Positions 35,871-50,795 of a DNA stretch of 64,000 nt are shown one piece after another. A program made the position numbers and the translations under genes. The notes beneath the pieces were generated by a model that saw nothing but the letters and a program-made list of their open reading frames with translations, was not told the DNA's origin and ran no database searches. Source of the stretch: Sphingomonas sp. (GTDB lineage: Bacteria > Pseudomonadota > Alphaproteobacteria > Sphingomonadales > Sphingomonadaceae); assembly GCA_021732445.1 (NCBI GenBank), contig JAKFUZ010000007.1, positions 1 through 64,000 on the forward strand, given 5' to 3'. Every line of letters begins with the position of its first letter. Position 1 is the stretch's first letter.

Positions 35871-35979
35871 GTTGTTCTCCATCTCCAGCGCGCGCTTGTT
35901 GACGGCAGCAGCGGCGGGTAACGCCGGCGCTTCTGGCGCCAAAGTTTTGTTCACAACTATGCGGTAAGGCTCCGCAGTG

Positions 35980-36927
35980 ATGAGCCCGACGCCGCCCACC
36001 GTATCCGTTATCGTGCCGGCCTATGGGCTTGCGCATGTCATTGGCGAGACGATCCGATCAATTCTTGCGCAAACCTTCCCGCACTGGGAAGCGGTCATCG
36101 TTGATGATGGCGCGCCCGATGATGTGGAAGGCGCCGTGCGGCCCTATCTGGGCGATCCGCGCATCTCGCTGCTCAAGACCGACAATAAGGGGCTGTCGGC
36201 GGCGCGCAACCGGGCCGTCGCCGCATCGGGCAGCGACCTGATCGCGCTGCTCGACGGGGATGATCTTTACGAGCCGACTTATCTCGCGCGGATGATGGCG
36301 CCCATGCGCTCGGACCCGACGCTGGGCTTTGTTACCTGCGACGCGACCTATTTCGGTGCGTCGCGCGTTGGACGCCGCTTCTCGCAATTTGTGCCGCAGG
36401 TCGAGCCGATAACGCTGGAACGCGTGCTGAGGCGCGAGTTCAACGTCTTTGTCGCCAGCATCTTCCGCCGTACGGCATTTGATGCCGCGGGCGGGTTTGA
36501 CGTGGCGCTGCGTTCGGCGGAAGATTTCGATCTGTGGATCAAAATTCTCGAACGGGGCTGGGCCGCCAGATATATCGACGCACCGCTTGTGCACTATCGG
36601 CGGCGCCCGGAATCAATGTCAAGCAACCGCCACCGGCTGCTCGGCGAAACGATGAACGTCTATGCCCAAGCCGAAACCCGGCTGCGCGGGCAGCCGGCGG
36701 GCCAAGTTGCCGCGGCCATGCGCGGCGCGGTGGCGCGCGAACTGGCGCTGGCAGAGGGCGAAGCGCTGGTGCTCGGTGGGCACCCCCGCGAAGGGCTGCG
36801 GCGCCTGCACGAGAGCGAACCTTGGCGGCATGGGCTAAAATGGCAGCTTGCATGGCCATTCCTGGCCATTCCGGGCCTGGCGCACCCGCTGCTCGCGGCG
36901 CGCGCGCGGTTCAATCGCAAATTTTAG
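35980..36927 (+). CDS. Family 2 glycosyltransferase
   Basis: 315 residues with a GT-A fold domain (about 1-230). The start is VSVIVPAYGLAHVIGETIRSILAQTFPHWEAVIVDDGAPDD, with the donor-binding DD. LIALLDGDDLYEPTYLARM supplies the DxD-like motif, and SAEDFDLWIKILERG the catalytic ED region. The acceptor and product are unknown, and no polysaccharide cluster surrounds it. It is divergent from ahcY. A GTG one codon upstream (35977) is closer to the AAGG ribosome site and equally possible. Confidence 0.88.
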   Translation: MSPTPPTVSVIVPAYGLAHVIGETIRSILAQTFPHWEAVIVDDGAPDDVEGAVRPYLGDPRISLLKTDNKGLSAARNRAVAASGSDLIALLDGDDLYEPTYLARMMAPMRSDPTLGFVTCDATYFGASRVGRRFSQFVPQVEPITLERVLRREFNVFVASIFRRTAFDAAGGFDVALRSAEDFDLWIKILERGWAARYIDAPLVHYRRRPESMSSNRHRLLGETMNVYAQAETRLRGQPAGQVAAAMRGAVARELALAEGEALVLGGHPREGLRRLHESEPWRHGLKWQLAWPFLAIPGLAHPLLAARARFNRKF

Positions 36928-37016
36928 CGGCGCGCTGAAAACGGCGGCTGCGGCACCTTCTCTCGCGCCGCGTGCTGGTCTAAGGCGCGCAGATCGAGCA
37001 CCGTTGGAGACTCAAA

Positions 37017-37499
37017 ATGACCATCAAGATTGGCGATACCCTGCCCGGCGCAACCTTCACCAAGGCAACCGAGTCGGGCCCCGAAGCAGTCGATAGCGAG
37101 AGCTTTTTTGCGGGCCGCAAGGTGGTGCTGTTCTCGGTGCCGGGTGCGTTCACGCCCACCTGCTCAGCCAGGCATTTGCCCGGCTTTGTGCAAAATGCCA
37201 GTGAATTCAAGGCCAAAGGCGTCGATGAAATCGCCTGCACCGCAGTGAACGACGCCTTTGTGCTTGGCGCCTGGAGCAAAAGCAGCAATGCCGGCGACAC
37301 CGTCACCATGCTGGGCGACGGCAATGGCGAATTCGCCGAAGCGATTGGCCTTACCATGGACGGCTCGAAGTTCGGCATGGGCAAACGCGGCCAGCGTTAT
37401 TCGATGCTGGTGGAAAATGGCGTCGTAACCCAGCTGAACGTCGAAGGGCCCGGTGAGTTCAAGGTCAGCTCAGCCGAGCACATGCTGCAAACCATGTGA
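37017..37499 (+). CDS. Peroxiredoxin (Prx5/AhpE-like redoxin type)
   Basis: 160 residues that reduce hydrogen peroxide and alkyl hydroperoxides. The catalytic PxxxTxxC is in VPGAFTPTCSARHLPGF. A typical Prx5 pattern follows (NDAFVLGAWSK, GDGNGEFAEAIGL, GKRGQRYSMLVENGVV). No second conserved cysteine is seen at the usual resolving site, although one Cys occurs at IACTAVND. It is probably reduced by a glutathione/glutaredoxin or thioredoxin route. GGAG precedes the ATG. It stands alone between two unrelated genes. Confidence 0.93.
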   Translation: MTIKIGDTLPGATFTKATESGPEAVDSESFFAGRKVVLFSVPGAFTPTCSARHLPGFVQNASEFKAKGVDEIACTAVNDAFVLGAWSKSSNAGDTVTMLGDGNGEFAEAIGLTMDGSKFGMGKRGQRYSMLVENGVVTQLNVEGPGEFKVSSAEHMLQTM

Positions 37500-37614
37500 A
37501 GCGCGTGCAGCGGGTCGGGTCTGCGGCCCGGCCCGCCGCGTTTGCACGCAGCGGCGTTGCCCCGCCCTGCCGCCTGTCTTGCCAGTGTCGCGCTAGTCGA
37601 TTAGCGCGGCACCC

Positions 37615-39051
37615 ATGACTACCGCACATGATATCGTTGCCGAGCTTGAACAGCTCTACCGCGCGTCGGTCCAGCGTCTTCAGGCCGCACTCGACCTGTA
37701 TCTGACAACCGGCACCGTGCCCGACGCGGCGCGGCGCACGGACGGGTCGTTTGCCTATCCTGAAATCCAGCTCCTCTTTCGCGGTGGGCCGGACCGCCCT
37801 GCGCCCATGCGCTCGTTCGGCCGGCTGATTACACCTGGCCGCTACAAGATCAGCGTCACCAAGCCCGCGTTGTTTGCCGATTACCTGACGGAGCAACTCA
37901 CCTTTCTGCTCGAAGATTATGATGTCGAAGTCCAGGCAGTGGCCGGCCGGCAGGAAATTCCCTTCCCCTATGTGCTTGATCCCGGCCACGCACTGAGCCT
38001 TGACGAAGTGTCGGCGACCGAACTCGCACGCTTTTTTCCGGCGACGGAGCTTGCCCATATCGGTGACGAAATCGCCGACGGACTTTGGGACAACCCAGAT
38101 GGCGTGCGCCCGCTCGCGCTGTTCGATGGCTTGCGGACCGATTTTTCGCTGGCCCGGCTGCGGCACTATACCGGCACGCCGCCCGAGCATGTGCAGCGAT
38201 TCGTGCTGTTCACCAACTACCACCGTTATGTCGACGAGTTTGTCCGCTGGGCGTGCGGGCAGTTGGGGCCGGACAGCCGCTATACCGCAGTATCGGGCGC
38301 AGGCGGGGTCATGATCGGCCCGGGCGACGACCCGGAAAAGCTCGTGACCGACAGCGCGTGGCGGCGTCACCAGATGCCTGCCTATCACCTGATTGCGCCC
38401 GGCGGCATGGGCATCAGCCTGGTCAACATTGGCGTCGGCCCGTCCAACGCCAAGACGATCACTGACCATCTTGCGGTCGTGCGGCCTGAAGCCTGGCTGA
38501 TGATCGGCCATTGCGGCGGCCTGCGCCCAAGCCAGCGGATTGGCGATTATGTGCTCGCCCATGCCTATCTGCGCGACGATCATGTGCTTGACGATGTGCT
38601 GCCGCCTGAAATTCCGGTGCCCGCCATCGCCGAAGTGCAGCAGGCGCTTGCCCGCGCGGCGGAAACGGTCTCCGGCCAGTCCGGCGACGAATTGAAGCGG
38701 CGGCTGCGCACCGGCACGATCGTCACCACCGATGATCGCAACTGGGAGCTTTCCTATTCCAAGTCGGCGCTGCGCTTTTCGCTCAGTCGCGCGGTTGGCA
38801 TCGACATGGAATCGGCGACGATTGCCGCGCAGGGTTATCGCTTCCGGGTGCCCTATGGCACGTTGCTGTGCGTGTCCGACAAGCCACTGCACGGCGAACT
38901 GAAGCTGCCCGGCCAGGCCAACCGATTTTACGAACGCGCCATTGCCGAGCATATGAAAATCGGCATCGAGGCGTGCGAACAATTGCGGCGCGAGGGCACC
39001 AAGCTGCATTCGCGCAAGCTACGCGCGTTTAACGAGCCGCCTTTCCGGTAA
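37615..39051 (+). CDS. amn: AMP nucleosidase
   Basis: Hydrolyses AMP to adenine and ribose-5-phosphate, lowering AMP when ATP is high; 478 residues, the full bacterial length. The N-terminal regulatory domain (about 1-190) includes SFGRLITPGRYKISVTKP. The C-terminal phosphorylase-like catalytic domain has YHLIAPGGMGISLVNIGVGPSNAKTI, IGHCGGLRPSQRIGDYVLAHAYLRDDHVLDD and VGIDMESATIAAQGYRFRVPYGTLLCVSDKPLHGE. A 115-base gap precedes it, and tRNA-Pro lies downstream on the opposite strand. Confidence 0.96.
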   Translation: MTTAHDIVAELEQLYRASVQRLQAALDLYLTTGTVPDAARRTDGSFAYPEIQLLFRGGPDRPAPMRSFGRLITPGRYKISVTKPALFADYLTEQLTFLLEDYDVEVQAVAGRQEIPFPYVLDPGHALSLDEVSATELARFFPATELAHIGDEIADGLWDNPDGVRPLALFDGLRTDFSLARLRHYTGTPPEHVQRFVLFTNYHRYVDEFVRWACGQLGPDSRYTAVSGAGGVMIGPGDDPEKLVTDSAWRRHQMPAYHLIAPGGMGISLVNIGVGPSNAKTITDHLAVVRPEAWLMIGHCGGLRPSQRIGDYVLAHAYLRDDHVLDDVLPPEIPVPAIAEVQQALARAAETVSGQSGDELKRRLRTGTIVTTDDRNWELSYSKSALRFSLSRAVGIDMESATIAAQGYRFRVPYGTLLCVSDKPLHGELKLPGQANRFYERAIAEHMKIGIEACEQLRREGTKLHSRKLRAFNEPPFR

Positions 39052-39269
39052 TTGCCCAAGACAGCGCCGGCCGGGCCAGACGTTTCGCATAGCAAGGAAC
39101 CGCAAACGCCGGGCCGTGTTTGGACGAAGAACGCATCAGACCCGCCCAGATTGAGATCAGCTTGTCGAAAGTTCGTGCATTCGGAATAGCCCGCAACGAC
39201 TTTTACACGGTTGCCGCTCAGGTCAAAGCCAGTCAATTTATGTCAGTAACTGGCAAATCGCCGAAATTG

Positions 39270-39346
39270 TGGTCGGGAAGAGAGGATTCGAACCTCCGGC
39301 CCCTGCCTCCCGAAGACAGTGCTCTACCAGGCTGAGCTACTCCCCG
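39270..39346 (-). tRNA. tRNA-Pro (anticodon CGG)
   Basis: A complete 77-base cloverleaf on the reverse strand. The acceptor is CGGGGAG / CTTCCCG with one G-T pair, the anticodon stem CTGTC/GGCAG closes the loop TTCGGGA (anticodon CGG), the T-loop is TTCGAAT and CCA is encoded at 39270-39272. It reads CCG. Confidence 0.95.
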
Positions 39347-39445
39347 ACGGAGTATGAACCGCCGCGGCGGGCGCGCCGGCGGTGCTTGGAAGCGCGCGCT
39401 ATACCGGCGGCGGCGGCGGCGTGCAAGCCTCGCCGCGAGCGCTCT

Positions 39446-40744
39446 TCAGCCCGCCAGCGCTGCCAGCATTTCGGCCATTGACGTGAATTTTTCGGAAGGC
39501 GCGCCAGCCCGCGCCCGCGCTTGTTCGGCCCGCTCGATCTTCTTCCAGTCGCGAAAAGTGACGATATCGACCTGGCGCCCGGAAAGCAGCGCATCGAGCC
39601 CGGCGCGCCCTTGCTTGTCGCGACCGCCCGCCCCTTCAGCGGCGATCAGTTCGGCAACGCTATAGCCATCTGGCCGGTTGGTGCCGATAGTGCCCGTGGG
39701 GCCGCGGCGCGCCCAGCCAACCGCGAACAGGCCCGGCGCGATTCGCCCGCCCTCATTGGCAAAACGGCCTGCGCCGGCATCATAGGGCACGCCTTCGATG
39801 GGCGGGGTGCGATAGCCAATGCAGGCGATGACCAGGGTTGCCGGCACCGCATAACGCTCGCCCGTGCCGACCGCCCGGCCAGTCTCGTCGATGCGCGTGC
39901 GCTCTGCGATGACCCGTTCCGCGCATGGCCCGCCTTCGACGGCCACGGGGCTGGCGAAAAAATCGAACGCGATCGTCACCGGTTTGTCGCCTGGCGCCGC
40001 GGCGAAGGCCCGCAGGTGCGCAACCGATTTGCGCAAGCCCGGCTCAAGCGCGGCATCGGCATCGGCGGGCGGCAGGTCCGCCGGGTCGACATGCGGCATG
40101 GCCCGCGCCAGATGGCCAAGCTCGCCCAGCTCCTTGGGTGTCATCGCAATCTGGTGGGGCCCGCGACGGCCCAATATGGTAATCCGCGCCACGCCTGACG
40201 CGGCTAGCGCCGTCAGCGCGTGCGCGGCAATATCCGACCCGTCAAACTCGGCCGGCGTCTTGGCGAGGATTCGCGCCACGTCGAGCGCCACATTGCCCAT
40301 GCCGATCACCGCGACATGACGGCCATCGAGCGGTGGATTGAGATCAGCAAAATCGGGATGACCATTATACCAGCCCACAAACGCCGCCGAGCCGATCACA
40401 CCCGGCAAATCCCGGCCCGGCATCTCAAGCGGGCGATCCGCCGGCGCCCCGGTCGCCACGACCACGGCATCATAAAGCGCTTGCAATTCGCCGACGGAAA
40501 CATCGCGGCCAACGGTTACATTGCCGACAAAGCGGACATTTTCGGAAAGCGCCACCGCCTCATAGCGGCGCGACACGCCCTTGATCGACTGATGATCGGG
40601 CGCAACGCCAAAGCGGATCAGGCCGTAGGGCACCGGCAGCCGGTCGATGATATCGACACGCACCGCATCGCCGAACAGCTTCTGACAGGCTTCGGCGGTG
40701 TAATAGCCGGCAGGCCCTGAGCCGATTATCGCGACATGCCGCAT
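39446..40744 (-). CDS. FprA-like ferredoxin/adrenodoxin-type NADP reductase
   Basis: 432-residue flavoprotein of the adrenodoxin-reductase family. The FAD-binding N-terminus is HVAIIGSGPAGYYTAEAC, the NADP-binding segment is VAVIGMGNVALDVARIL followed by ILGRRGPHQIAMTPKEL, and WARRGPTGTIGTNRPDG is the C-terminal FAD contact. It likely passes electrons from NADPH to a ferredoxin serving oxygenases, P450s or Fe-S assembly; no partner is nearby. It lies between tRNA-Pro and the HprK-related operon, with its own promoter region (40745-40806 lies downstream of that operon). Confidence 0.9.
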   Translation of the reverse strand: MRHVAIIGSGPAGYYTAEACQKLFGDAVRVDIIDRLPVPYGLIRFGVAPDHQSIKGVSRRYEAVALSENVRFVGNVTVGRDVSVGELQALYDAVVVATGAPADRPLEMPGRDLPGVIGSAAFVGWYNGHPDFADLNPPLDGRHVAVIGMGNVALDVARILAKTPAEFDGSDIAAHALTALAASGVARITILGRRGPHQIAMTPKELGELGHLARAMPHVDPADLPPADADAALEPGLRKSVAHLRAFAAAPGDKPVTIAFDFFASPVAVEGGPCAERVIAERTRIDETGRAVGTGERYAVPATLVIACIGYRTPPIEGVPYDAGAGRFANEGGRIAPGLFAVGWARRGPTGTIGTNRPDGYSVAELIAAEGAGGRDKQGRAGLDALLSGRQVDIVTFRDWKKIERAEQARARAGAPSEKFTSMAEMLAALAG

Positions 40745-40806
40745 GGGCGTGCCCTCTCCCCTATAAGTGCCCTCAGCCTAGCCGCGCGCGGCGGCGCTGG
40801 GAAGGG

Positions 40807-41826
40807 CTAGCCGCGATGGCCCTGGCGCCATTTGGTCCACAAATGCCCGGCAAGGAGCAGCGGCGGCATCCGCAGCCAGTGCGAACGGACGTAGAAGAAC
40901 TGGCGCGTCACCGGGCGCGTCGCGCGGCCCCACCCGTCACGCGCGACAAGGCGGCGCAGATAGAGCCAGTCGGTAGCAGGGGCGCGCGGCCATTCGGCGC
41001 CGATTGCGGTGCCAAACAGCGCATTGGCCAGCCGCAGCGCGCGCGCCGTTTCGGCAAGCAGCCCGTGGTGCAGCGCACGCGCACACAGCCCGCTGGTGCC
41101 GAACTCGCCTGCCAGGCAATGCACGTCCCACAGGTTGCGCAGGCCGCCAGCCAGATCGCCATCGGCAAACAGGTGGCAGGCGGCGTGCACCAGCATATCG
41201 TTGGGGCACAGCACAAACAGCCCGTTTTCAAGCACCACACCCTCCGCCAGCAGCGCCGCGGCGTCTGGCCGGGGCCGCGCGGTCGGGGGCAATATCGTGT
41301 GGTGAATGTCGATCATCCGGTCGCGGTCGCGGTGGATGAGCGGCGGCAACTCGTGCATCCAGCGCCGGTAGTAGGCGTCGTCATAGGCGTTGGGTTTTAC
41401 CCACTCCCACCCGGCGCGCAGAATGGCCGCCTCGACCGCACCAAGCACCGCACATGGCACCAATATGTCGAGATCGCCGATCGAGCGACCAACGCCGGCC
41501 TGCAAGCCGGCGGCGACGAAGGCGGTGCCTTTCAGCAGCACGACCCGGCAGCCAAGCGGCGCGAGCGCCCGCCGCGCCGCTTCAGCCTCCCACAGGGCAG
41601 CCGTGCGCCCCTGATCGGCGGATTGGCGGGCATCAGCCAAAATTCGCGCGGCTGCCGGGGGCATCGGCTGCCCGGCCAGCCGGTGGGCCAGCGTGCCGAT
41701 CATTTGCTCGGCGCGGGCGATGGCGATCAGCGCGGTCCACCCGTCCCCGTCGAGCGCGCCGGTGGTTGCGGGGTCGCGCAGCGCATGGGCCAGCAGCCAG
41801 CCATCAAGGATCATGACGCGGCCCAT
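40807..41826 (-). CDS. Nucleotidyltransferase-family protein of the HprK-related operon
   Basis: 339 residues resembling the uncharacterised nucleotidyltransferase family NTP_transf_5. The catalytic pattern is VVLLKGTAFVAAGLQAGVGRSIGDLDILVP, with DxD at about 118-120, followed by IDIHHTILPP and a helical C-terminal half (CPNDMLVHAACHLFADGDL). It could transfer a nucleotide to a protein, peptide or sugar; no substrate is known. It is the last gene of the operon and overlaps the kinase gene by 16 bases. The association with an HprK-related kinase and a PqqD-like protein is a recurring one as I recall it. Confidence 0.8.
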   Translation of the reverse strand: MGRVMILDGWLLAHALRDPATTGALDGDGWTALIAIARAEQMIGTLAHRLAGQPMPPAAARILADARQSADQGRTAALWEAEAARRALAPLGCRVVLLKGTAFVAAGLQAGVGRSIGDLDILVPCAVLGAVEAAILRAGWEWVKPNAYDDAYYRRWMHELPPLIHRDRDRMIDIHHTILPPTARPRPDAAALLAEGVVLENGLFVLCPNDMLVHAACHLFADGDLAGGLRNLWDVHCLAGEFGTSGLCARALHHGLLAETARALRLANALFGTAIGAEWPRAPATDWLYLRRLVARDGWGRATRPVTRQFFYVRSHWLRMPPLLLAGHLWTKWRQGHRG

Positions 41827-42671
41827 AGCCGGTCGACGGCCGCCACAGCGCTTGCAGTATCAGGATAGTCGATAGCGCGGGCGGGCACCGACTTTACGAG
41901 CGTTGCCAGCGCGCCAAACCCCGCCTCGCCAAGCGCGACATAGTTGGTCGATGCCTGAGTAAGCCGCACGAACACTTCGCCTGGGGCAACATCGCGGACG
42001 GCAGCAGCCGCGCCAAAGCGGGGGAACAGCAGCAGCGCCGGCAGGGCGGGCACGTCCATTGCAGCAATCGCCGCTGCATCTGGCACCATATGGCGGATAT
42101 CGCCCTTGGGCGTGCCCGCCAGCAACGGGCCGAAGCGGGCACCGGGCAGCGCCCGCTCCACCACGCCAATCGCCGCGTTCTTCAAGCTCACCAGGCGCGG
42201 AAACGCATGGACAAGGCCGGTTGCGGGGTCAACCAGCGCGAACTCGTCCCCCATCAGCCGCCACCCGCGCGCGCTGAGCAGCGCGGCAAGGGTCGATTTG
42301 CCCGATCCGGACTCACCCGTCATCAGCAGCGCGCGGCCATCTTTTTCGACAACCGAGGCGTGCAGCAACAGATAACGTCGCTGGCCAAGCGCCATTTGCA
42401 GGTTCATCGCCATTTCGGCCGCGAGCAAGCCCTGGGCCAGCGGCAGCGGCGCGGCGTCGGGCAGCACATAATCCCCGCCGAGCACAACCGCTGGACGCAC
42501 CACCCGGCGCCAGGGGCGCGCCGCGAACAGCCGAACCGAAAAATCGGGAATGCCACCGTCGGGCGCAGGGTAATCTGCGTAGAGCGCGCGCAACTGAGCA
42601 ATCGGCGCGGCCCAGTCTGCGCCGATGCGAAACCCCACCGGCCCGATACGCAGCTGATGGCTATGCCTCAT
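41811..42671 (-). CDS. HprK-related kinase A
   Basis: 286 residues. The central P-loop is LLMTGESGSGKSTLAALLSARGW (about 115-137), followed by LMGDEFALVDP, the layout of HPr kinase/phosphorylase catalytic domains. The preceding segment LLLHASVVEKDGRALL is also typical. The HPr(Ser) interaction region is not recognisable, and no HPr gene is present. It most likely phosphorylates another small protein or peptide; HprK-like kinases act on lasso-peptide precursors in some bacteria. It overlaps the PqqD-like gene by four bases and the nucleotidyltransferase gene by 16. Confidence 0.85.
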   Translation of the reverse strand: MRHSHQLRIGPVGFRIGADWAAPIAQLRALYADYPAPDGGIPDFSVRLFAARPWRRVVRPAVVLGGDYVLPDAAPLPLAQGLLAAEMAMNLQMALGQRRYLLLHASVVEKDGRALLMTGESGSGKSTLAALLSARGWRLMGDEFALVDPATGLVHAFPRLVSLKNAAIGVVERALPGARFGPLLAGTPKGDIRHMVPDAAAIAAMDVPALPALLLFPRFGAAAAVRDVAPGEVFVRLTQASTNYVALGEAGFGALATLVKSVPARAIDYPDTASAVAAVDRLWAAS

Positions 42672-42943
42672 GTAACGGCGACCAGCCCGCTTGCCACCAG
42701 CTCAGCCAACCGGGCAGAAAGTAGCGCCTCATCGCTGTCAATCACTGAAAAGTCAGCACCAAGCCGGGCAAGCAGCGCTGCCTGCGTCATCGGCGCGCCC
42801 GCAAGGACCGCCAGAATCTCGGGCGCCGGTGACACCAGCAAATGCGTGATGCCAGAGGCGCGGTGATAAACGAGCGTGAGTGCATCAAGCGGCTCGATGC
42901 GCAACTGTTCGGCCGGCGTCGCGCAAAACAGCGGTTCGGGCAC
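42668..42943 (-). CDS. PqqD-like (RRE-fold) protein of the HprK-related operon
   Basis: A 91-residue protein read from GTG at 42943 after GAGG. It follows the PqqD pattern: LDALTLVYHRASGITHLLVSPAPEILAVL (strand-strand-helix), then a winged-helix part with LLARLGADFSVIDSDEALLSARLAELVASGLV. PqqD-type domains bind leader peptides of ribosomally made peptides. A longer frame enters the upstream gene and is rejected. The start lies four bases after the preceding gene, and the stop overlaps the kinase by four bases. Confidence 0.8.
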   Translation of the reverse strand: MPEPLFCATPAEQLRIEPLDALTLVYHRASGITHLLVSPAPEILAVLAGAPMTQAALLARLGADFSVIDSDEALLSARLAELVASGLVAVT

Positions 42944-42947
42944 GGCC

Positions 42948-43358
42948 TCAGCCGCGGGGCATCTGCAACGATGCAAAGCAGGTAAAGCCGCTCGTGCCCG
43001 ATTGCAGACGGCGGATATATTGCATGTAGGCGCGGCTCCGATCGGAATCGACGCCGGGGAGCTGGCCGCCCGACAATGCCTGTCGAACATCCTCGCCCTT
43101 CAGCGGGCGCAGTGGCGGCGGAAAGGCGCCAACCGTGCCGGCGGGCACCATCGTGCCATCGGGGGCAATATAGCTGCCGGCGTGCACCCCGTCGGGCACC
43201 GGGATGTCGCAGGCGATGACCGACGCCGCCGTCTGCGCGAGCGCGGGGCGAATCGACATGATGGCCGACGCGCCGACCGCGCCCAGCATCAGCGCCTGCC
43301 GCCGTGTCGCAACAGCGCGGGCCGAGCCGGCCTCATCCTTTGGCGTTTCATCGGTCAT
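42948..43358 (-). CDS. Small Tat-type exported protein leading the HprK-related operon
   Basis: Function unknown; 136 residues from the ATG at 43358, which follows GAGG. Residues about 17-42 look like a twin-arginine signal (TRRQALMLGAVGASAIMSIRPALAQ), with cleavage expected after ALA. The mature part is about 95 residues. It contains two cysteines (SVIACDIPV and GFTCFASL), a Gly/Pro-rich middle (GSYIAPDGTMVPAGTVGAFPPPLRPLKG) and ends in MPRG. As the first gene of the operon it is a plausible substrate of the enzymes that follow. An ATG 11 codons upstream is less likely. Confidence 0.75.
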   Translation of the reverse strand: MTDETPKDEAGSARAVATRRQALMLGAVGASAIMSIRPALAQTAASVIACDIPVPDGVHAGSYIAPDGTMVPAGTVGAFPPPLRPLKGEDVRQALSGGQLPGVDSDRSRAYMQYIRRLQSGTSGFTCFASLQMPRG

Positions 43359-43454
43359 TATGGCCTCATTATGCGCGCCGAGCCCTTTCATAAAGGTAAA
43401 ACTGGCGCAAGCCGCGCTCGCCCGGCGCCGACTATTGCGCTATTCCCCTGGCCG

Positions 43455-44717
43455 ATGCTCAATTCCTCTGGTCCGCGCACCCTGATCGCCATTGGCCTCA
43501 TCGCCATCGCCGCGCTGGCAGTGGGGCTGCTCGTGCATGATGCACAGGGGGGGCTGATCGTGCTGATTGGCGGGACGGCGGCCGTGCTGGTCGCTGCCGG
43601 CACGGGCGATCCGGCGCCGATACCAAGCTCCCGGCCGGCCGACAAGCTCGCGCGCGGGCCCGCCAATGTCGCCGAAGTGCTCGAATCGATCATCGAGCCG
43701 GTGCTGATCGTGGAGGAAGGTCGGGTGGAACATGCCAATCAGGCCGCCCGCACGCTGCTTGGCGGCCACATTGTGGGCGAGGACGTCCGGCTCGCGATCC
43801 GCCACCCGGCCGCTGCCGAGCGGCTGACCGCAGACCGACCGCCGCCGCGCCGCGCGATCAGCCTGGTGGGGCTTGGCACGCTCGACCAGCGCTGGGAAAT
43901 GCGGGTTAGCCAAACTACTGACAAGCGCCGCGTTGTTCACCTTATCGACCAGACGGGCAGCTATGCGGCGGAGAGGATGCGGGTCGATTTCGTCGCCAAT
44001 GCCAGCCATGAACTGCGCACGCCGCTCGCCTCCATCCTTGGCTTCATCGAAACGCTGAGCGACGACAAGGCCGGCGATGATCGCGAGGTACGCGGCCGGT
44101 TTCTCAAGGTCATGTTCGGTGAAGCGCGGCGGATGCAGCGGCTGATCGAGGATCTGATCTCGCTGTCGCGCATCGAGGCGGAAAAATATCGCCCGCCGTC
44201 AAAGCCCGTGGATCTGGCGATGCTGATGCAGGAAGTGCACGCAGAGCTTGCGGATACGCCGGATCAGCGCGGTGCCGACATCATCTCGGACATCGACGGC
44301 AATCTGCCAACCGTGGCCGGCGATCGGGCGCAGCTCAGCCAGGTGCTCCACAACCTCATCGGCAACGCGATGAAATATGGCCGGCCGGGCACGCCGATCC
44401 TCGCCAAATTATGGAAAGACCAGACCGGCATGGTCCGCATCAGCGTGTCTGACGAGGGCGAAGGCATCGCGCCCGAACATATTCCCCGGCTGACCGAGCG
44501 CTTCTACCGCGTCGACTCAGGGCGGAGCCGGGCGCTGGGCGGCACCGGGCTTGGGCTTGCCATCGTCAAGCACATTATCGAGCGACATCGCGGCCGGCTC
44601 GACATCAGCAGCACGCTGGGCAAGGGCACGACCGTCTCTATCCTGCTTCCGCCAACGCCCGCTCCCGCCCGGAGTGCTGTAAAATTACCACCAAAGGGCG
44701 TTGTCATTGAAACGTAA
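43455..44717 (+). CDS. phoR: Phosphate regulon sensor histidine kinase PhoR
   Basis: 420 residues from the ATG at 43455. Two hydrophobic segments (about 8-48), a PAS domain (about 70-165), HisKA with the phospho-His in NASHELRTPLASILGFIETL (about 188), and HATPase boxes LIGNAMKYGRPG, VSDEGEGIAPEHIPRLTERFYRVD and GGTGLGLAIVKHI. It responds to phosphate limitation through PstSCAB-PhoU and phosphorylates PhoB. The longer open frame runs through the divergent operon and is not real. Its last codons overlap the Pho-box-like repeat. Confidence 0.95.
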   Translation: MLNSSGPRTLIAIGLIAIAALAVGLLVHDAQGGLIVLIGGTAAVLVAAGTGDPAPIPSSRPADKLARGPANVAEVLESIIEPVLIVEEGRVEHANQAARTLLGGHIVGEDVRLAIRHPAAAERLTADRPPPRRAISLVGLGTLDQRWEMRVSQTTDKRRVVHLIDQTGSYAAERMRVDFVANASHELRTPLASILGFIETLSDDKAGDDREVRGRFLKVMFGEARRMQRLIEDLISLSRIEAEKYRPPSKPVDLAMLMQEVHAELADTPDQRGADIISDIDGNLPTVAGDRAQLSQVLHNLIGNAMKYGRPGTPILAKLWKDQTGMVRISVSDEGEGIAPEHIPRLTERFYRVDSGRSRALGGTGLGLAIVKHIIERHRGRLDISSTLGKGTTVSILLPPTPAPARSAVKLPPKGVVIET

Positions 44718-44729
44718 CAATAGTGTCAC
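44701..44729 (+). promoter_or_regulatory. Pho-box-like direct repeats before pstS
   Basis: Three 7-base units at an exact 11-base period, TTGTCAT (44701-44707), ACGTAAC (44712-44718) and GTGTCAC (44723-44729), separated by A/T-rich 4-base spacers. PhoB binds CTGTCAT-type direct repeats with this spacing. The box starts inside the last codons of phoR and ends 65 bases before the pstS start, suggesting pstS onward is PhoB-activated apart from phoR. Confidence 0.7.
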
Positions 44730-44794
44730 ACAGCCGGATGGGTGCAGATGGTAGCGCCGGCATCGGGGTAAGATCTGGCATCGGGAGAATGACT

Positions 44795-45856
44795 ATGCAG
44801 CGCCGGGTGGGCATTTATGCCGCGATGACTTTTTTGGTGGCCGGCGCGGTGGGTGGCTGTAACGATCAGGCCGATTTTGGTGGCGCGGGCGCGCGTGACC
44901 AGATAAAAATCGTGGGTTCATCAACAGTTTATCCGTTCACGACATTAGTCGCTGAGCAATATGTAAACCGCAATCCGGGCACCAAAGCGCCCGTTATCGA
45001 ATCAACCGGAACCGGGGCGGGCATGAAATTGTTCTGCGCGGGAATCGGCTCGCAGCATCCCGATATCGAGGACGCTTCGCGGCGGATGAAGGCATCGGAA
45101 TTCAAGACCTGTACCGAGCATGGTGTCGACCAGATTCTTGAAATTCAGGTCGGAATCGACGGCATTGCCTTTGCCGAATCGAAATCTGGGAAGGCCCTCC
45201 AGCTGACGCCGGTTGACCTGTATCTGGCGCTTGCGGCCAACCCGCGCGGCGCCAAAAACACGACGAAAACGTGGAAAGACGTCAACCCCGCGCTCCCCGC
45301 CATTCCCATTCAGGTCTATGGCCCGCCATCGACCAGCGGCACGCGCGATGCACTGGCCGAATTGATCCTCGCGCGCGGCTGTGCGGCCATCTATCCGCCA
45401 AGCATGAAGCTAAGGGACACCAAACCTGACGAATATGCTGCCGTCTGCACGCGCATTCGCGATGATGGCGCCTATGTCGACGCCGGCGAGAATGACAATC
45501 TGATTGTCCAGAAGCTGCAATCCAACCCCAACGCGATTGGCATTTTTGGTTATTCCTATCTGGAGGAAAACGCCGACGTGCTGAACGGCCTCGCACTGGC
45601 CGGGGTCGAGCCAAGTTATGAAACCATTTCCCAGGGGCTGTATCCCGGTGCCCGTCCGTTGTTTCTCTACGTGAAGCGCGCGCACCTGTCGGCGATTCCC
45701 GGGCTTGCCAAGTTCCTCGACCAATATGCCGCAAGCTGGGGGCCGGATGGCCCCTTGGCCAAGCGCGGGCTTATTCCGGCGCCGGCGGACGTGCGCACGG
45801 CATCAGCTGCGATCATCAAGAACCAAACCCTGCTTGATGGGCGCGCGCTGAATTGA
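44795..45856 (+). CDS. pstS: Phosphate ABC transporter substrate-binding lipoprotein PstS
   Basis: 353 residues. A lipoprotein-like signal ends in GAVGGC. The phosphate-binding loop IVGSSTVYPFTTLVAEQY and STGTGAGMKLFCAG are typical, as is the second contact STSGTRDALAE and the hinge NPNAIGIFGYSYLEEN. Four cysteines may form disulfides. It captures phosphate in the periplasm for PstCAB. The ATG at 44795 follows GGGAGA; 44789 is an alternative. A Pho-box-like repeat lies upstream. Confidence 0.96.
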   Translation: MQRRVGIYAAMTFLVAGAVGGCNDQADFGGAGARDQIKIVGSSTVYPFTTLVAEQYVNRNPGTKAPVIESTGTGAGMKLFCAGIGSQHPDIEDASRRMKASEFKTCTEHGVDQILEIQVGIDGIAFAESKSGKALQLTPVDLYLALAANPRGAKNTTKTWKDVNPALPAIPIQVYGPPSTSGTRDALAELILARGCAAIYPPSMKLRDTKPDEYAAVCTRIRDDGAYVDAGENDNLIVQKLQSNPNAIGIFGYSYLEENADVLNGLALAGVEPSYETISQGLYPGARPLFLYVKRAHLSAIPGLAKFLDQYAASWGPDGPLAKRGLIPAPADVRTASAAIIKNQTLLDGRALN

Positions 45857-45937
45857 TCGCAGGGTTCGTGCCGGCGTTGCTGGCCGGTGCGCGCCCCGAT
45901 TTCGGCCCCTCATCTGCCCGCATAAGGCGCACCGCTT

Positions 45938-47314
45938 TTGTCCACACCGGTATTATTGTTTCTGATTGCGTGCCTGGGGCTGATTGGGTGGTTGATGGCG
46001 CGTGTGCGTGCGGTCGCGTTTCGCCGCGCCGGGCAGCGCCGCTCAAGCTCGCTGCCGGGGCATCACGGGGCTTATGTGGCGTTCTGGATCGTCGCGCCGG
46101 TGATGCTGTTCGTGGCGCTATGGTCCACCATCACCCCGGCGATGGTGACGCAAACGGTGCTGCGCGCGCCTGAGGCCGCCAGCCTGCCGCCAACGCGGTT
46201 TGAACGGGCGGCGATCTTGACGGAGGCGCGGGCGCTGGCCGGCAAGGGCGGCGGTGCGGCGTTCAATCCGCAGGCGGCAAGGCTCGCGCCGGTCTATGCC
46301 GCAACGCAACAGCGCTATGACTGGGCCGGATCAAGCCTGGCGCTTGTGCTGGCCATCGCGTGCGGCATCTATGCGTATCTGCAGGTCACTCCGGCGCTGC
46401 GCGCACGCACCTATATCGAGCGCGTCATCATGGGCACCCTGCTGGCGGCGTCGCTCATCGCGGTGCTGACGACGATCGGTATCGTCGGCTCGCTATTGTT
46501 TGAATCCTGGCGCTTTTTCCAGCTCGTGCCCGTGGCGGACTTCCTCACCGGCACGCATTGGAGCCCGCAAGTCATCGACACGCGCGACCCCGGCGCGTCG
46601 CTTGGCGCGGTGCCGCTGTTCTGGGGCACGTTCTTCATCGGCGCGGTAATAGCAATGGCGGTTGCAATACCATTTGGGCTGATGAGCGCCATTTTCCTCA
46701 CCCAATATGCAAGTGCGGCGGTTCGCCGCTGGATGAAGCCGATACTGGAAATTCTCGCCGGGGTGCCCACCGTCGTTTATGGCTATTTCGCCGCGCTGAC
46801 GGTGGCGCCGGCCGTGCGCGATGCAGCGGTTGCGCTGGGGCTGAAATGGGCAAGTTCGGAAAGCGCGCTGGCGGCGGGCCTGGTCATGGGCGTGATGATT
46901 ATCCCGTTTGTGTCTTCGATGGCCGATGATTCGATTGCGGCGGTGCCTGCTGGCATGCGCGATGGGTCGCTCGCAATGGGCGCAACCACATCGGAAACCA
47001 TTCGCCGGGTGTTGGTGCCGGCGGCGTTGCCGGGCGTGGTCGGCGGCGTGCTGCTGGCGGTCAGCCGCGCGATAGGCGAAACGATGATCGTGGTGATGGC
47101 CGCTTCGGGTGCCGCCACCATCTCGCTCAACCCGCTGGCGAGCGCGACCACCGTTACCAAGCAGATCGTCGATCTGCTGACCGGCGAAGCCGAGTTTGAC
47201 AGCCCCAAAACGCTGGCAGCCTTTGCGCTAGGCCTGACCTTGTTTGTAATCACGCTGTTGCTCAACATCATCGCGCTTACCGTGGTGAAGCGCTATCGCG
47301 AAGCCTATGAATAG
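45938..47314 (+). CDS. pstC: Phosphate ABC transporter permease PstC
   Basis: 458 residues, longer than E. coli PstC because of an extended N-terminus with two spans and a periplasmic loop (about 1-150). The permease core has the EAA-type loop SETIRRVLVPAALPGVVGGVLLAVSRAIGETMIVVMA. It forms the inner-membrane channel with PstA. The start is a TTG at 45938 after AAGGCG. It overlaps pstA by eight bases. Confidence 0.94.
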   Translation: MSTPVLLFLIACLGLIGWLMARVRAVAFRRAGQRRSSSLPGHHGAYVAFWIVAPVMLFVALWSTITPAMVTQTVLRAPEAASLPPTRFERAAILTEARALAGKGGGAAFNPQAARLAPVYAATQQRYDWAGSSLALVLAIACGIYAYLQVTPALRARTYIERVIMGTLLAASLIAVLTTIGIVGSLLFESWRFFQLVPVADFLTGTHWSPQVIDTRDPGASLGAVPLFWGTFFIGAVIAMAVAIPFGLMSAIFLTQYASAAVRRWMKPILEILAGVPTVVYGYFAALTVAPAVRDAAVALGLKWASSESALAAGLVMGVMIIPFVSSMADDSIAAVPAGMRDGSLAMGATTSETIRRVLVPAALPGVVGGVLLAVSRAIGETMIVVMAASGAATISLNPLASATTVTKQIVDLLTGEAEFDSPKTLAAFALGLTLFVITLLLNIIALTVVKRYREAYE

Positions 47315-48584
47315 CGCCGAAGCCCCTTCCCCCGGCGGGCGGGCGCCAACCGACTGGCGCTCCGCCACGATGCAGCGGCGCGTCCGACAGCGTTATGCCG
47401 CGGAGCGGCGCTTTCGCCTTGCCGGGCTTGCGGCTGTGGTGCTGTCGGCCGGCTTCCTCGTGTTCTTGCTGGTAACCATGGTGGCCAACGGGGTACGCGG
47501 CTTTACGCAGACCGAACTGGCGTTGACGATCGACTTGCCAGCGCTTGGGTTAAGGCTTGATCCGGCGCGGCTAAACAGCGCAGCGGCTGATCTTGTGCTG
47601 GTCAACGCCGGCCTGCCCGAGGTGACCGAGCGTGCCGCGCGCAACAGCTTTGGGCCGCAGGGCGCAGCGCTGCTCTCTGAAGGTGCCTGGCTCAAGTTGC
47701 GCGATGCGTTGAAGGCGCGGCCCGAGCTGGTCTCCGCCCCGGCCACAATCTATGTGCCCGCCGCAACCGACATCGACAACGCGGCCAAGGGCGCCGGAAG
47801 CATAACCGCCGAAGCCGCAGTCGCCCGGTTGACAGCCGCGGGGAAGCTCCGCACCGTTTTCAACCTTGGCTTCCTGACCGGTGCGGACTCGACTGACCCG
47901 ACGCTGGTCGGCATCTGGGGCGCGCTCAAAGGGTCGCTGCTGACCATGCTGGTGACGCTGGCGCTGGCCTTTCCCGTCGGCGTGCTCGCGGCTCTGTACC
48001 TTGAGGAATATGCACCGCGCAATCGCTGGACGGACCTGATCGAGGTGTCGATCAACAATCTGGCCGCGGTCCCGTCGATTATCTTTGGCTTGCTTGGCCT
48101 TGCCGTGTTCCTTGGCACGTTCAACCTGCCGCGATCGGCACCGCTGGTCGGCGGGCTTACGCTCGCGCTGATGACAATGCCGGTCATCGTTATCGCCGGG
48201 CGCAATGCCATAAAGGGAGTGCCGCCGTCGATCCGGGACGCAGCGTTTGGCATTGGCGCAAGCCCCGTGCAGGTCGTGTTCCACCATGTGCTGCCGCTGG
48301 CGCTGCCGGGCATTCTCACCGGCACGATCATTGGCATGGCGCGCGCGCTTGGCGAAACCGCACCGCTCTTGATGATCGGCATGCGCGCCTTCATTGCCGC
48401 ACCGCCCGACCGGCTGACCGATCCGGCAACGGTGCTTCCGGTGCAGATTTTCCTTTGGTCCGACGAAGTCAGCCGGGGCTTTGTTGAAAAGACCAGCGCG
48501 GCAATCATCGTGCTGCTCGTGTTCCTCCTGGCGATGAACGGCTTTGCCATTTACCTCCGCAACAGATTTGAGACCCGCTGGTGA
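47307..48584 (+). CDS. pstA: Phosphate ABC transporter permease PstA
   Basis: 425 residues. The N-terminal extension (about 1-190) resembles the DUF3333 region of alphaproteobacterial PstA, with one span (about 36-58) and a periplasmic loop. The core permease carries the EAA-like loop [50 protein letters not shown]. It pairs with PstC. The ATG overlaps pstC, and the stop overlaps pstB (GTGA). Confidence 0.95.
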
Positions 48585-49369
48585 CCAAAACAACCGCTGC
48601 TCCGCCTGCCGCCCAGCCCAAGATGACCGCGCGGGGAGTTTGCGTGCGCTATGGCGCCACGCCGGCGATTATGGATATTTCAATCGACGTGCACACCGAT
48701 TTCGTGACCTCGCTGATCGGTCCGTCGGGCTGCGGCAAATCAACCTTTTTGCGCACATTGAACCGCATGAACGACACCATCCCCATTGCCCACACAACGG
48801 GAGAGATAAAACTTGACGGGCAGGACATCTATGCCGCGGACATGGACGTGGTGCAGTTGCGCGCGCGGGTTGGCATGGTGTTTCAAAAGCCCAACCCGTT
48901 CCCCAAATCCATCTATGAAAATGTCGCTTACGGCCCACGGATTCACGGGCTGGCCTCGTCAAGGGCGCAGCTTGATGCAGTGGTCGAGCAGTCGCTCCGC
49001 CGCGCCGGGCTGTGGGACGAAGTGAAGGACCGCCTCTCTGACAGCGGCACCGCCTTGTCGGGCGGCCAGCAGCAGCGGCTGTGCATCGCCAGAGCCATTG
49101 CCGTCGACCCGGAGGTCATCCTGATGGACGAGCCGTGCTCGGCGCTTGACCCGATTGCGACGGCCAAGATCGAAGAACTGATCCACGAGCTCAAGGGCCG
49201 CTACGCCATCGTCATCGTCACCCACAACATGCAGCAGGCGGCACGCGTGTCGCAGCGCACGGCGTTTTTCCACCTCGGCACCATGGTGGAATATGGCTCG
49301 ACCTCAGACATTTTCACTAACCCCCGCAAGGAGCGGACCAAGGATTACATCACCGGCCGCTACGGCTGA
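48581..49369 (+). CDS. pstB: Phosphate ABC transporter ATPase PstB
   Basis: 262 residues. Walker [21 protein letters not shown]-loop [20 protein letters not shown], signature [14 protein letters not shown], Walker [14 protein letters not shown] and the switch His in [14 protein letters not shown] are all intact. It powers phosphate import and relays the phosphate signal through PhoU to PhoR. It starts with GTG overlapping the pstA stop. Confidence 0.98.
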
Positions 49370-49401
49370 ACGGCACCCTCCAGCGCATTTAGGACCTTTT
49401 A

Positions 49402-50088
49402 GTGGTTGAACACACGGTCAAGGCATTTGATGAAGATATCGGGCAACTGCGCGGGCTGATCGCGCAGATGGGCGGGCTTGCCGAACAGGCTATCGTCGAT
49501 GCGATGGAGGCGCTGAAGCGGCAGGATGTGGAAGGCGCCGCGCGCGTCGTCGCCGTCGACAAGCAGATCGACGCGCTCGAAATCGAGGTGGAGCGGCTTG
49601 CGGTGCAGCTCATTGCCCTGCGCGCGCCGCTCGCGGATGATCTGCGCGAGGTTGTCGCTGCCCTGAAGATTGCAGGCGTTGTCGAACGGATCGGCGATTA
49701 TGCCAAAAACATCGCACGGCGCGTGTCGGCAATCGACGGCCACGGCAATATCGAGCCGCTGTCGGTGCTGCCGGCAATGGCCGCAATGGCCACCAAGATG
49801 GTGCATGACGTGCTCGACGCATTTGCAGCGCGCGACGCGGAAGCCGCGATCCGCGTTTGGGAAAGCGATCGCGCGCTCGACGACTTCTACAACAGCCTGT
49901 TTCGCGTTCTCGTAACCTATATGATGGAAAATCCGGCCAGCATTGGCCAGGGCGCGCATCTGCTGTTCATCGCCAAGAATCTGGAGCGTGTGGGCGACCA
50001 CGCGACCAATGTCGCCGAGATGGTCTATTACGCGGCCACCGGCATCCACATGGGTGAGCGCGATCGCGGCGCCGCCCCAACCGACTGA
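49402..50088 (+). CDS. phoU: Phosphate signalling regulator PhoU
   Basis: 228 residues, two three-helix bundles with the repeated metal-binding motif: VVAALKIAGVVERIGDYAKNIARR and LLFIAKNLERVGDHATNVAEM. It links PstB to PhoR and restrains the Pho response when phosphate is plentiful. The start is GTG at 49402 with AGGA upstream. It sits between pstB and phoB, 14 bases ahead of phoB. Confidence 0.96.
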   Translation: MVEHTVKAFDEDIGQLRGLIAQMGGLAEQAIVDAMEALKRQDVEGAARVVAVDKQIDALEIEVERLAVQLIALRAPLADDLREVVAALKIAGVVERIGDYAKNIARRVSAIDGHGNIEPLSVLPAMAAMATKMVHDVLDAFAARDAEAAIRVWESDRALDDFYNSLFRVLVTYMMENPASIGQGAHLLFIAKNLERVGDHATNVAEMVYYAATGIHMGERDRGAAPTD

Positions 50089-50102
50089 CGGAGAAGACGC
50101 TC

Positions 50103-50795
50103 ATGGCACGCGCCAAAATGCTGCTGGTTGAAGATGATGCAGCGCTCGCCGAACTGCTCGTCTGGCACTTCAAACGCGAAGATTTCGAAGTGCAGCAAAC
50201 GCCCGATGGCGAAGAGGCGCTGCTGTTCGCCAAAGAGGCAACGCCCGACATCGTCCTGCTCGACTGGATGGTCGAGGGGCTGTCCGGCATCGAGGTTTGC
50301 CGCCGGCTGCGCCGCATGCCCGAAACGGCCAACGTCCCCATCATCATGCTGACCGCGCGCGGCGAAGAGGAAGACCGGGTGCGCGGACTGGAAACCGGCG
50401 CCGATGATTATGTGACCAAGCCCTTTTCTCCCCGCGAGCTGATCGCCCGGGTGGGCGCAGTGCTGCGCCGCGTGCGCCCGGCGCTTGCCGGCGAGCAGCT
50501 TACCTATGCCGATATCGAAATGGATACGGTCGGCCACAAGGTGCGTCGCGGCGGCGATGTCGTGCCGTTGGGGCCAACCGAGTTTCGCCTGCTCAAGCAT
50601 TTCCTTGAACACCCCGGCTGGGTATTTTCGCGCGAGCGGCTGCTCGATGCGGTGTGGGGGCACGACAGCGACATCGAATCGCGTACCGTCGACGTGCATA
50701 TCCGGCGGCTGCGCAAGGCGATCAACATCGGCGACCGGCCAGACATCATCCGCACGGTGCGCTCGGCGGGCTATGCGCTGGACTCCGGCACCTGA
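50103..50795 (+). CDS. phoB: Phosphate regulon response regulator PhoB
   Basis: 230 residues. The receiver domain (about 1-120) has the acidic pair VEDDAA, the phospho-Asp in IVLLDWMVEGLSG, the Thr in IIMLTARGEE and the Lys in DDYVTKPFSPREL. The OmpR-type winged helix (about 130-228) includes LGPTEFRLLKHFLEHPGWVFSRERLLDAVWG and RTVDVHIRRLRKAI. It is activated by PhoR and binds Pho boxes such as the one upstream of pstS. It ends the Pho operon. Confidence 0.97.
   Translation: MARAKMLLVEDDAALAELLVWHFKREDFEVQQTPDGEEALLFAKEATPDIVLLDWMVEGLSGIEVCRRLRRMPETANVPIIMLTARGEEEDRVRGLETGADDYVTKPFSPRELIARVGAVLRRVRPALAGEQLTYADIEMDTVGHKVRRGGDVVPLGPTEFRLLKHFLEHPGWVFSRERLLDAVWGHDSDIESRTVDVHIRRLRKAINIGDRPDIIRTVRSAGYALDSGT

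Follow-up and report, generated by a model that had tools for sequence, protein, structure and literature searches.

A proposed leader-guided tailoring operon for an exported protein in Sphingomonas, centred on the HPr-rel-A kinase and its PqqD-like partner

The systems closest to the operon considered here are the tailoring of lasso peptides and the NCBIfam 'HPr-rel-A system'. Two reviews attribute phosphorylation of the C-terminal Ser in lasso precursors to HprK-like kinases, with one example from Sphingobium yanoikuyae (PMC8498205; PMC9266682). They also describe pseudomycoidin, for which a nucleotidyltransferase adds one or two hexoses to the Ser phosphate in vivo (PMC8498205; PMC9266682). 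No paper on HPr-rel-A was found in the open-licence literature, by title or by the start of the abstract. The window, by which we mean the whole analysed stretch of 64,000 nucleotides from Sphingomonas sp. (contig JAKFUZ010000007.1, positions 1 to 64,000), contains four closely packed open reading frames on the minus strand (43358-40807). They encode an exported protein, a PqqD-like protein, an HprK-related kinase and a nucleotidyltransferase. We propose that this operon may carry out leader-guided tailoring, in which a conserved Ser near the C-terminus of the exported protein would be phosphorylated and then capped before export. Going by sequence patterns and by analogy with lasso systems, we judge this reading to be about evenly poised between right and wrong.

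The four-gene operon is real, and the original prediction, which had named these four reverse-strand genes, is borne out by the coordinates and the open reading frames. All four genes are on the minus strand. The gene for the exported protein (42948..43358, 136 amino acids) is separated by a 4-base gap from that for the PqqD-like protein (42668..42943, 91 amino acids, GTG start), which overlaps the gene for HprK-related kinase A (41811..42671, 286 amino acids) by 4 bases. The kinase gene in turn overlaps the nucleotidyltransferase gene (40807..41826, 339 amino acids) by 16 bases if the latter begins at 41826; judging from the sequence, the likelier start is an in-frame ATG at 41814, which forms an ATGA overlap with the kinase stop. 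The kinase scores 244.4 bits against TIGR04352 (cut-off 200) and the PqqD-like protein 61.2 bits against TIGR04353 (cut-off 35), the two NCBIfam models of the HPr-rel-A system, so both family matches claimed earlier are over their cut-offs. The nucleotidyltransferase matches Pfam PF14907 with 149.6 bits (cut-off 31.2). No NCBIfam or Pfam model reaches its cut-off with the exported protein, nor with ten of its distant counterparts.

The exported protein, the product of the operon's first gene, is the best substrate candidate, and its sequence has two conserved ends. It consists of an RR (paired-arginine) leader, a variable core with one N-proximal Cys (C50), and the C-terminal tail GFTCFASLQMPRG. 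The leader segment RRQALMLGAVGASAIMSIRPALAQ is encoded at 43233..43304 (residues 19-42) and a C-terminal [ST]CxxS motif at 42966..42983 (codons of T-C-F-A-S-L, residues 126-131), both on the minus strand; S130 of this motif is the proposed phospho-acceptor. The protein encoded ahead of PqqD in relatives usually begins with an RR-type leader, continues with a core of low conservation and has the motif [ST]-C-x-x-S-[hydrophobic] close to its C-terminal end. A profile-based count gave the motif in 144 of 146 proteins (L155 and L158 lack it), and this count is possibly biased because the profile itself contains the motif, so genes were picked again by position and leader only. The 147 genes picked this way come from 161 loci, minus 12 without a PqqD match and two without a candidate (L076, L201). 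The motif occurs within the last 45 residues in 136 of them, compared with a mean of 2.0 and a maximum of 8 in a shuffled control (300 composition-preserving rounds on the mature parts), and in none of the partner proteins (PqqD 0/149, kinase 0/161, nucleotidyltransferase 0/145). The 11 motif-less picks comprise five precursors of another type (L141, L143, L144, L150, L154), L155, and five wrong picks, two where the exported gene lies further upstream (L066, L198) and three where the wrong open reading frame was taken (L216, L217, L218).

The two ends also persist at distance. Over 600 random pairs from 63 distant motif-bearing precursors, the leaders share a mean identity of 0.47 (shuffled 0.24) and the cores one of 0.26 (shuffled 0.21). 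These precursors were selected by the motif Cys and Ser, which are therefore invariant by choice; the unselected residue after the Cys is in every case one of W, F, Y, L, I and V, and eight or fewer residues follow the Ser in 54 of the 63. The leader pattern (RR motif, hydrophobic stretch, AxA-like end) is present in 65/65 distant precursors, a set preselected for an RR-like motif. The precursor at L174 has merely 20 residues beyond the leader, yet it ends in SCLDSFNGL; its gene may be truncated. The structural model of the exported protein has a mean pLDDT (predicted local distance difference test) of 64 with the tail outside the confident part, and a fold search with it gave four matches, the best at E 2.3, so we claim no fold.

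An alternative for these residues is structural: the Cys pair would form a disulphide with the Ser as part of a cap, and the kinase and nucleotidyltransferase would act, before export, on the PqqD protein or on another residue of the exported protein, such as a Ser or Thr in its leader or core. In favour of this idea, C50, C127 and S130 never vary in the alignment of 53 exported-protein sequences, and some precursors without the C-terminal motif retain a Cys soon after the leader. We consider it unlikely, since tail motif and leader persist at large distance and the core hardly does, and since lasso kinases target a C-terminal Ser (PMC8498205).

The gene set recurs in the phylum, in line with the original prediction. 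Among the best 80 of 494 kinase loci, the nearest named relatives are Sphingomonas and close genera; nearly all of these 80 close loci carry such names, and they are not independent. Gene order is kept among them, with the kinase at 80, the exported protein at 79, PqqD at 79 and the nucleotidyltransferase at 76, whose four misses are all at contig ends. Of 80 further loci that were fetched, 46 lie outside Sphingomonadales, where they cover 46 of 48 kinase-positive genomes (all but G217 and G363), and 34 within it (L187-L220); 17 more stretches within the order were added later. Iterated profiles over 161 loci recovered the exported protein at 144, PqqD at 149 and the nucleotidyltransferase at 145, with some of the misses at contig ends.

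At the level of whole genomes, the kinase is over its cut-off in 88 of 196 Sphingomonadales genomes, in one copy each, and in 61 of 398 genomes of a phylum sample. We scored up to 21 candidates per genome with A2, a profile built from the exported family. Among the 196 genomes, 60 of the 90 that have the kinase (the 88 plus two just below the cut-off) gave a match, against 0 of the 106 that lack it. In the window's family, the A2-matched and kinase-positive genome sets are identical (32 and 32), and the 30 kinase-positive genomes without an A2 match all belong to other families. Nine of these 30 were fetched, and all nine encode a diverged precursor with the motif.

The exported gene is kept even where it is unlinked to the kinase, which was seen in six genomes. 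In five genomes of one genus it stands by a PhoR-like gene, with the PqqD-kinase-nucleotidyltransferase trio 164-685 kb away (four genomes) or on another contig (one). In the sixth (G053), the genes form two pairs on different contigs, the exported protein with PqqD and the kinase with the nucleotidyltransferase. This retention of unlinked partners argues for a shared function. In a second genus, six genomes (L235-L240) have additional exported-protein copies on contigs other than that of the kinase, and a single set of enzymes may thus have several substrates. The motif is present in all 12 examined copies away from the kinase.

The PqqD-like label given in the original prediction holds by TIGR04353 and does not extend to PF05402, whose cut-off the protein fails to reach and for which its own genome contains no match; the identity thus rests on TIGR04353. 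A profile of the family aligns with the PqqD proteins of lasso-type or similar clusters (L266, L267, L270; hhalign E 2.1e-9, 85 columns). Against the PDB the same profile found designed proteins as best matches, with the lasso B1 protein TfuB1 at E 0.38 only, so the assignment to RRE-type proteins is based on TIGR04353 and the hhalign match.

In the kinase, H104, the P-loop K125 and D142 are invariant across nine aligned kinases. A His-Lys-Asp-Asp motif is described for lasso kinases in a review (PMC9266682), and the position after D142 would be the last Asp of this motif. The weak similarity to HPr kinase/phosphorylase over the P-loop region could mean that the kinase acts in signalling, on HPr or a phosphotransferase system (PTS) protein, and that the other genes are mere neighbours. 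This is very improbable: the kinase scores 24.3 bits against TIGR00679 (HPr kinase/phosphorylase), where the cut-off is 240, and it is retained together with the exported protein even when the two are apart.

The fourth protein is, by its predicted fold and by its DxD plus third acid, a member of the nucleotidyltransferase superfamily. D118 and D120 (DxD) and D173 are invariant in 30 aligned sequences, and the protein aligns with the PF14907 protein of L267 (E 3.9e-8). The structural model (pLDDT 91.8) has MenT1 and ANT(2'') as its best fold matches, with a Foldseek probability of 1.00 and none at E <= 0.001; a sequence search of the PDB gave nothing up to E 0.1. A toxin-antitoxin or defence unit would fit the resemblance to MenT toxins (MenT1 is the top fold match, E 1.5e-3), and we regard it as extremely improbable: synteny is stable across the 80 close loci, which are the best of 494, each positive genome has one kinase over cut-off, and the unit has an exported partner and the XrtA context described below.

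True nucleotidylation is harder to set aside. In that case the phospho-Ser would receive a nucleotide and no sugar, or the Ser would be nucleotidylated directly, an idea that overlaps with our proposal, in which the nature of the cap is left open. The resemblance of the PF14907 model to nucleotidyltransferases (best MenT1 and ANT(2'')) and the invariance of DxD and the third Asp in the 30 sequences speak for it. Against it, the sole experimental precedent that we found for a kinase and nucleotidyltransferase acting on a lasso peptide puts a hexose on the phosphate (PMC8498205); its enzyme may or may not belong to PF14907. We hold true nucleotidylation to be rather unlikely. The earlier suggestion of phosphorylation followed by nucleotidylation is plausible, but in the closest experimental precedent that we found, pseudomycoidin, it is hexose that the C-terminal phospho-Ser receives (PMC8498205, PMC9266682).

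Beyond gene content, all steps of the tailoring proposal are inferred, with the lasso-type precedent and the conserved kinase and nucleotidyltransferase residues as the grounds. The PqqD-like protein would bind the RR leader and the HprK-like kinase would phosphorylate the conserved Ser of [ST]CxxS. The PF14907 nucleotidyltransferase would then extend the phosphate, with a sugar as in pseudomycoidin or with a nucleotide. The exported protein would leave the cell, probably by twin-arginine translocation (Tat), and lose its leader. A protein modification route, the general idea of the original prediction, remains the likeliest reading; the product, which had been left unnamed, is now sharpened to a best substrate candidate, the exported protein with its conserved leader and near-C-terminal [ST]CxxS.

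The genomic context links the module to XrtA. Among 20 flanking proteins scanned from six loci outside the order, families of XrtA/PEP-CTERM loci are over their cut-offs at five of the six (all but L155), represented by TIGR03088, TIGR03087, TIGR03108, TIGR03019, TIGR02916, TIGR02915, TIGR02917, TIGR03027 or TIGR03097. A looser search, in which glycosyltransferases and Asn synthases may be unspecific, gave at least one XrtA-locus-like gene in the examined stretch for 35 of these 46 loci from other orders. XrtA itself was called by TIGR03109 (E <= 1e-20; nine matches outside the window's family are below the cut-off) and is present in 84 of 90 kinase-positive and 64 of 106 kinase-negative Sphingomonadales genomes (Fisher 2.8e-8, ancestry ignored). 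The six kinase-positive genomes without it are draft assemblies of 60-400 contigs. Outside the window's family, XrtA is within 15 kb of the kinase in all 35 genomes that have both on one contig; in 17 genomes the two are on different contigs. Many lineages outside the window's family have the module in or near an exosortase-A exopolysaccharide locus, which makes the cell surface or the matrix the probable place of action of the product.

A more specific idea builds on this context. The end product could be a glycosyl-phospho-Ser near the C-terminus of a Tat-exported protein, where the sugar would join the protein to, or prime, XrtA-dependent exopolysaccharide; such a linkage would be a protein-polysaccharide bond built by enzymes that decorate lasso peptides elsewhere. 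We offer this whole idea as speculation that is quite unlikely to hold in full. The XrtA amidotransferase TIGR03108 also matches the lasso cyclase model and comes next after the nucleotidyltransferase gene in some lineages, and it may act on the same product. This arrangement is seen at L142 and L146, where the TIGR03108 amidotransferase gene stands last, behind those for the exported protein, PqqD, the kinase and the nucleotidyltransferase in that order.

Several observations weigh against the tailoring of a C-terminal Ser. The co-occurrence and the family scores on which the original prediction had staked itself were both found, yet a few kinase loci are without recognisable partners: in the 4 to 7 kb examined upstream at L151, L168, L178 and L186 there is no recognised precursor or PqqD, and L151 and L168 also have no nucleotidyltransferase. 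At L153, L173, L176, L180 and L181, no nucleotidyltransferase is present in the 3.7-7.6 kb examined downstream, and at several other loci it is 1.5-2 kb away. Six position-picked precursors have no C-terminal motif (L141, L143, L144, L150, L154, L155), and other precursor types occur at loci without a PqqD match (L156-L159, L185); the acceptor may therefore differ, or the motif may be structural. A plain disulphide could account for the two conserved Cys, and the leader may be conserved for export alone and not for PqqD binding. HPr-rel-A kinases carry Glu directly after D142, a position at which the five HprK-like kinases of other clusters carry Asp. The window's genome has the operon away from XrtA (contigs C9 and C15, respectively), XrtA is common in the kinase-negative genomes counted above, and all cross-genome counts ignore ancestry.

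Further features were noted around the operon and its relatives. A second type of precursor, with an RR leader and often a C[ST][IVL]S start and an SPGxW-like segment, is found at L141, L143, L144, L150, L154, L156, L157, L159 and L185. A trypsin-like protease gene is in the examined stretch at seven of these nine loci, and precursors of this type (motifs such as CSISGxxS and SPGxW) are often near trypsin-like protease and PrsK/PrsT-like genes. Asp runs, perhaps for metal binding, occur within the core of the exported protein at L197, L199, L200, L203, L212 and L220. Upstream of the exported gene, L031-L110 have a recurrent DNA element like TTTACGATTGCGAAAG or TTGCGAATGTGAAAGGG, which is not a Pho box.

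In the stretch 43455-50795 of the window (plus strand), a PhoR-like histidine kinase gene is divergent from the operon and is followed by genes for a phosphate-type binding protein, permeases, an ABC (ATP-binding cassette) ATPase, PhoU and a response regulator (Pfam; the Pst/Pho naming is our interpretation). PhoR-like genes are present at 74 of the 80 close loci (best 80 of 494) and beside six exported genes unlinked to the kinase. No Pho box with fewer than four mismatches was found in 79 regions upstream of the exported gene, and despite the PhoR-like neighbour we do not claim phosphate regulation of the operon.

The kinase of the window shares with HPr kinase/phosphorylase the P-loop and an aligned His and Asp of the active-site region, and differs in falling far below the TIGR00679 cut-off. 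Many relatives of the module are in or within 15 kb of XrtA/PEP-CTERM loci, whereas in the window's family the module is beside a PhoR-like gene and away from XrtA. The exported protein of the window also ends in a short polar tail and not in a membrane segment, in contrast to the proteins of those loci.

The combination of an RRE-type protein with a precursor that has a conserved leader and a variable core could fit ribosomally synthesized and post-translationally modified peptides (RiPPs), but the leader is also signal-type, and its conservation may reflect export alone. With the tailoring of paeninodin and pseudomycoidin the operon shares a PqqD-type protein, an HprK-like kinase and a nucleotidyltransferase, and its candidate acceptor Ser is also near the C-terminus. 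The operon differs from lasso systems in that its substrate candidate is larger, a protein whose leader is of the RR signal type, and its kinase differs from lasso kinases in the Glu after the conserved Asp. The B2 protease (PF13471) and Asn-synthase (PF00733) families are absent from the ten genes around the operon searched with Pfam (35977-50795, a selection of the open reading frames). The lasso-type cluster L267 encodes a B2 protein (NF033537), a PqqD protein (PF05402) and a PF14907 protein, each over its cut-off, with an Asn-synthase protein that, among NCBIfam models, matches the lasso cyclase best (below cut-off) and an HprK-like kinase below the TIGR04352 cut-off. PF14907 and HprK-like genes are likewise near each other in the other clusters of L266-L270.

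With the HPr-rel-A system, the window shares a kinase and a PqqD partner over the curated cut-offs. The names of those families carry no function or substrate, and to this annotation we add an exported-protein family, its C-terminal motif, its retention apart from the kinase and its association with XrtA. What had been a database system name without a function in it now has a substrate candidate and an invariant candidate acceptor residue. If the tailoring proposal is true, lasso-type tailoring enzymes act on whole exported proteins, and such tailoring is tied to exopolysaccharide loci.

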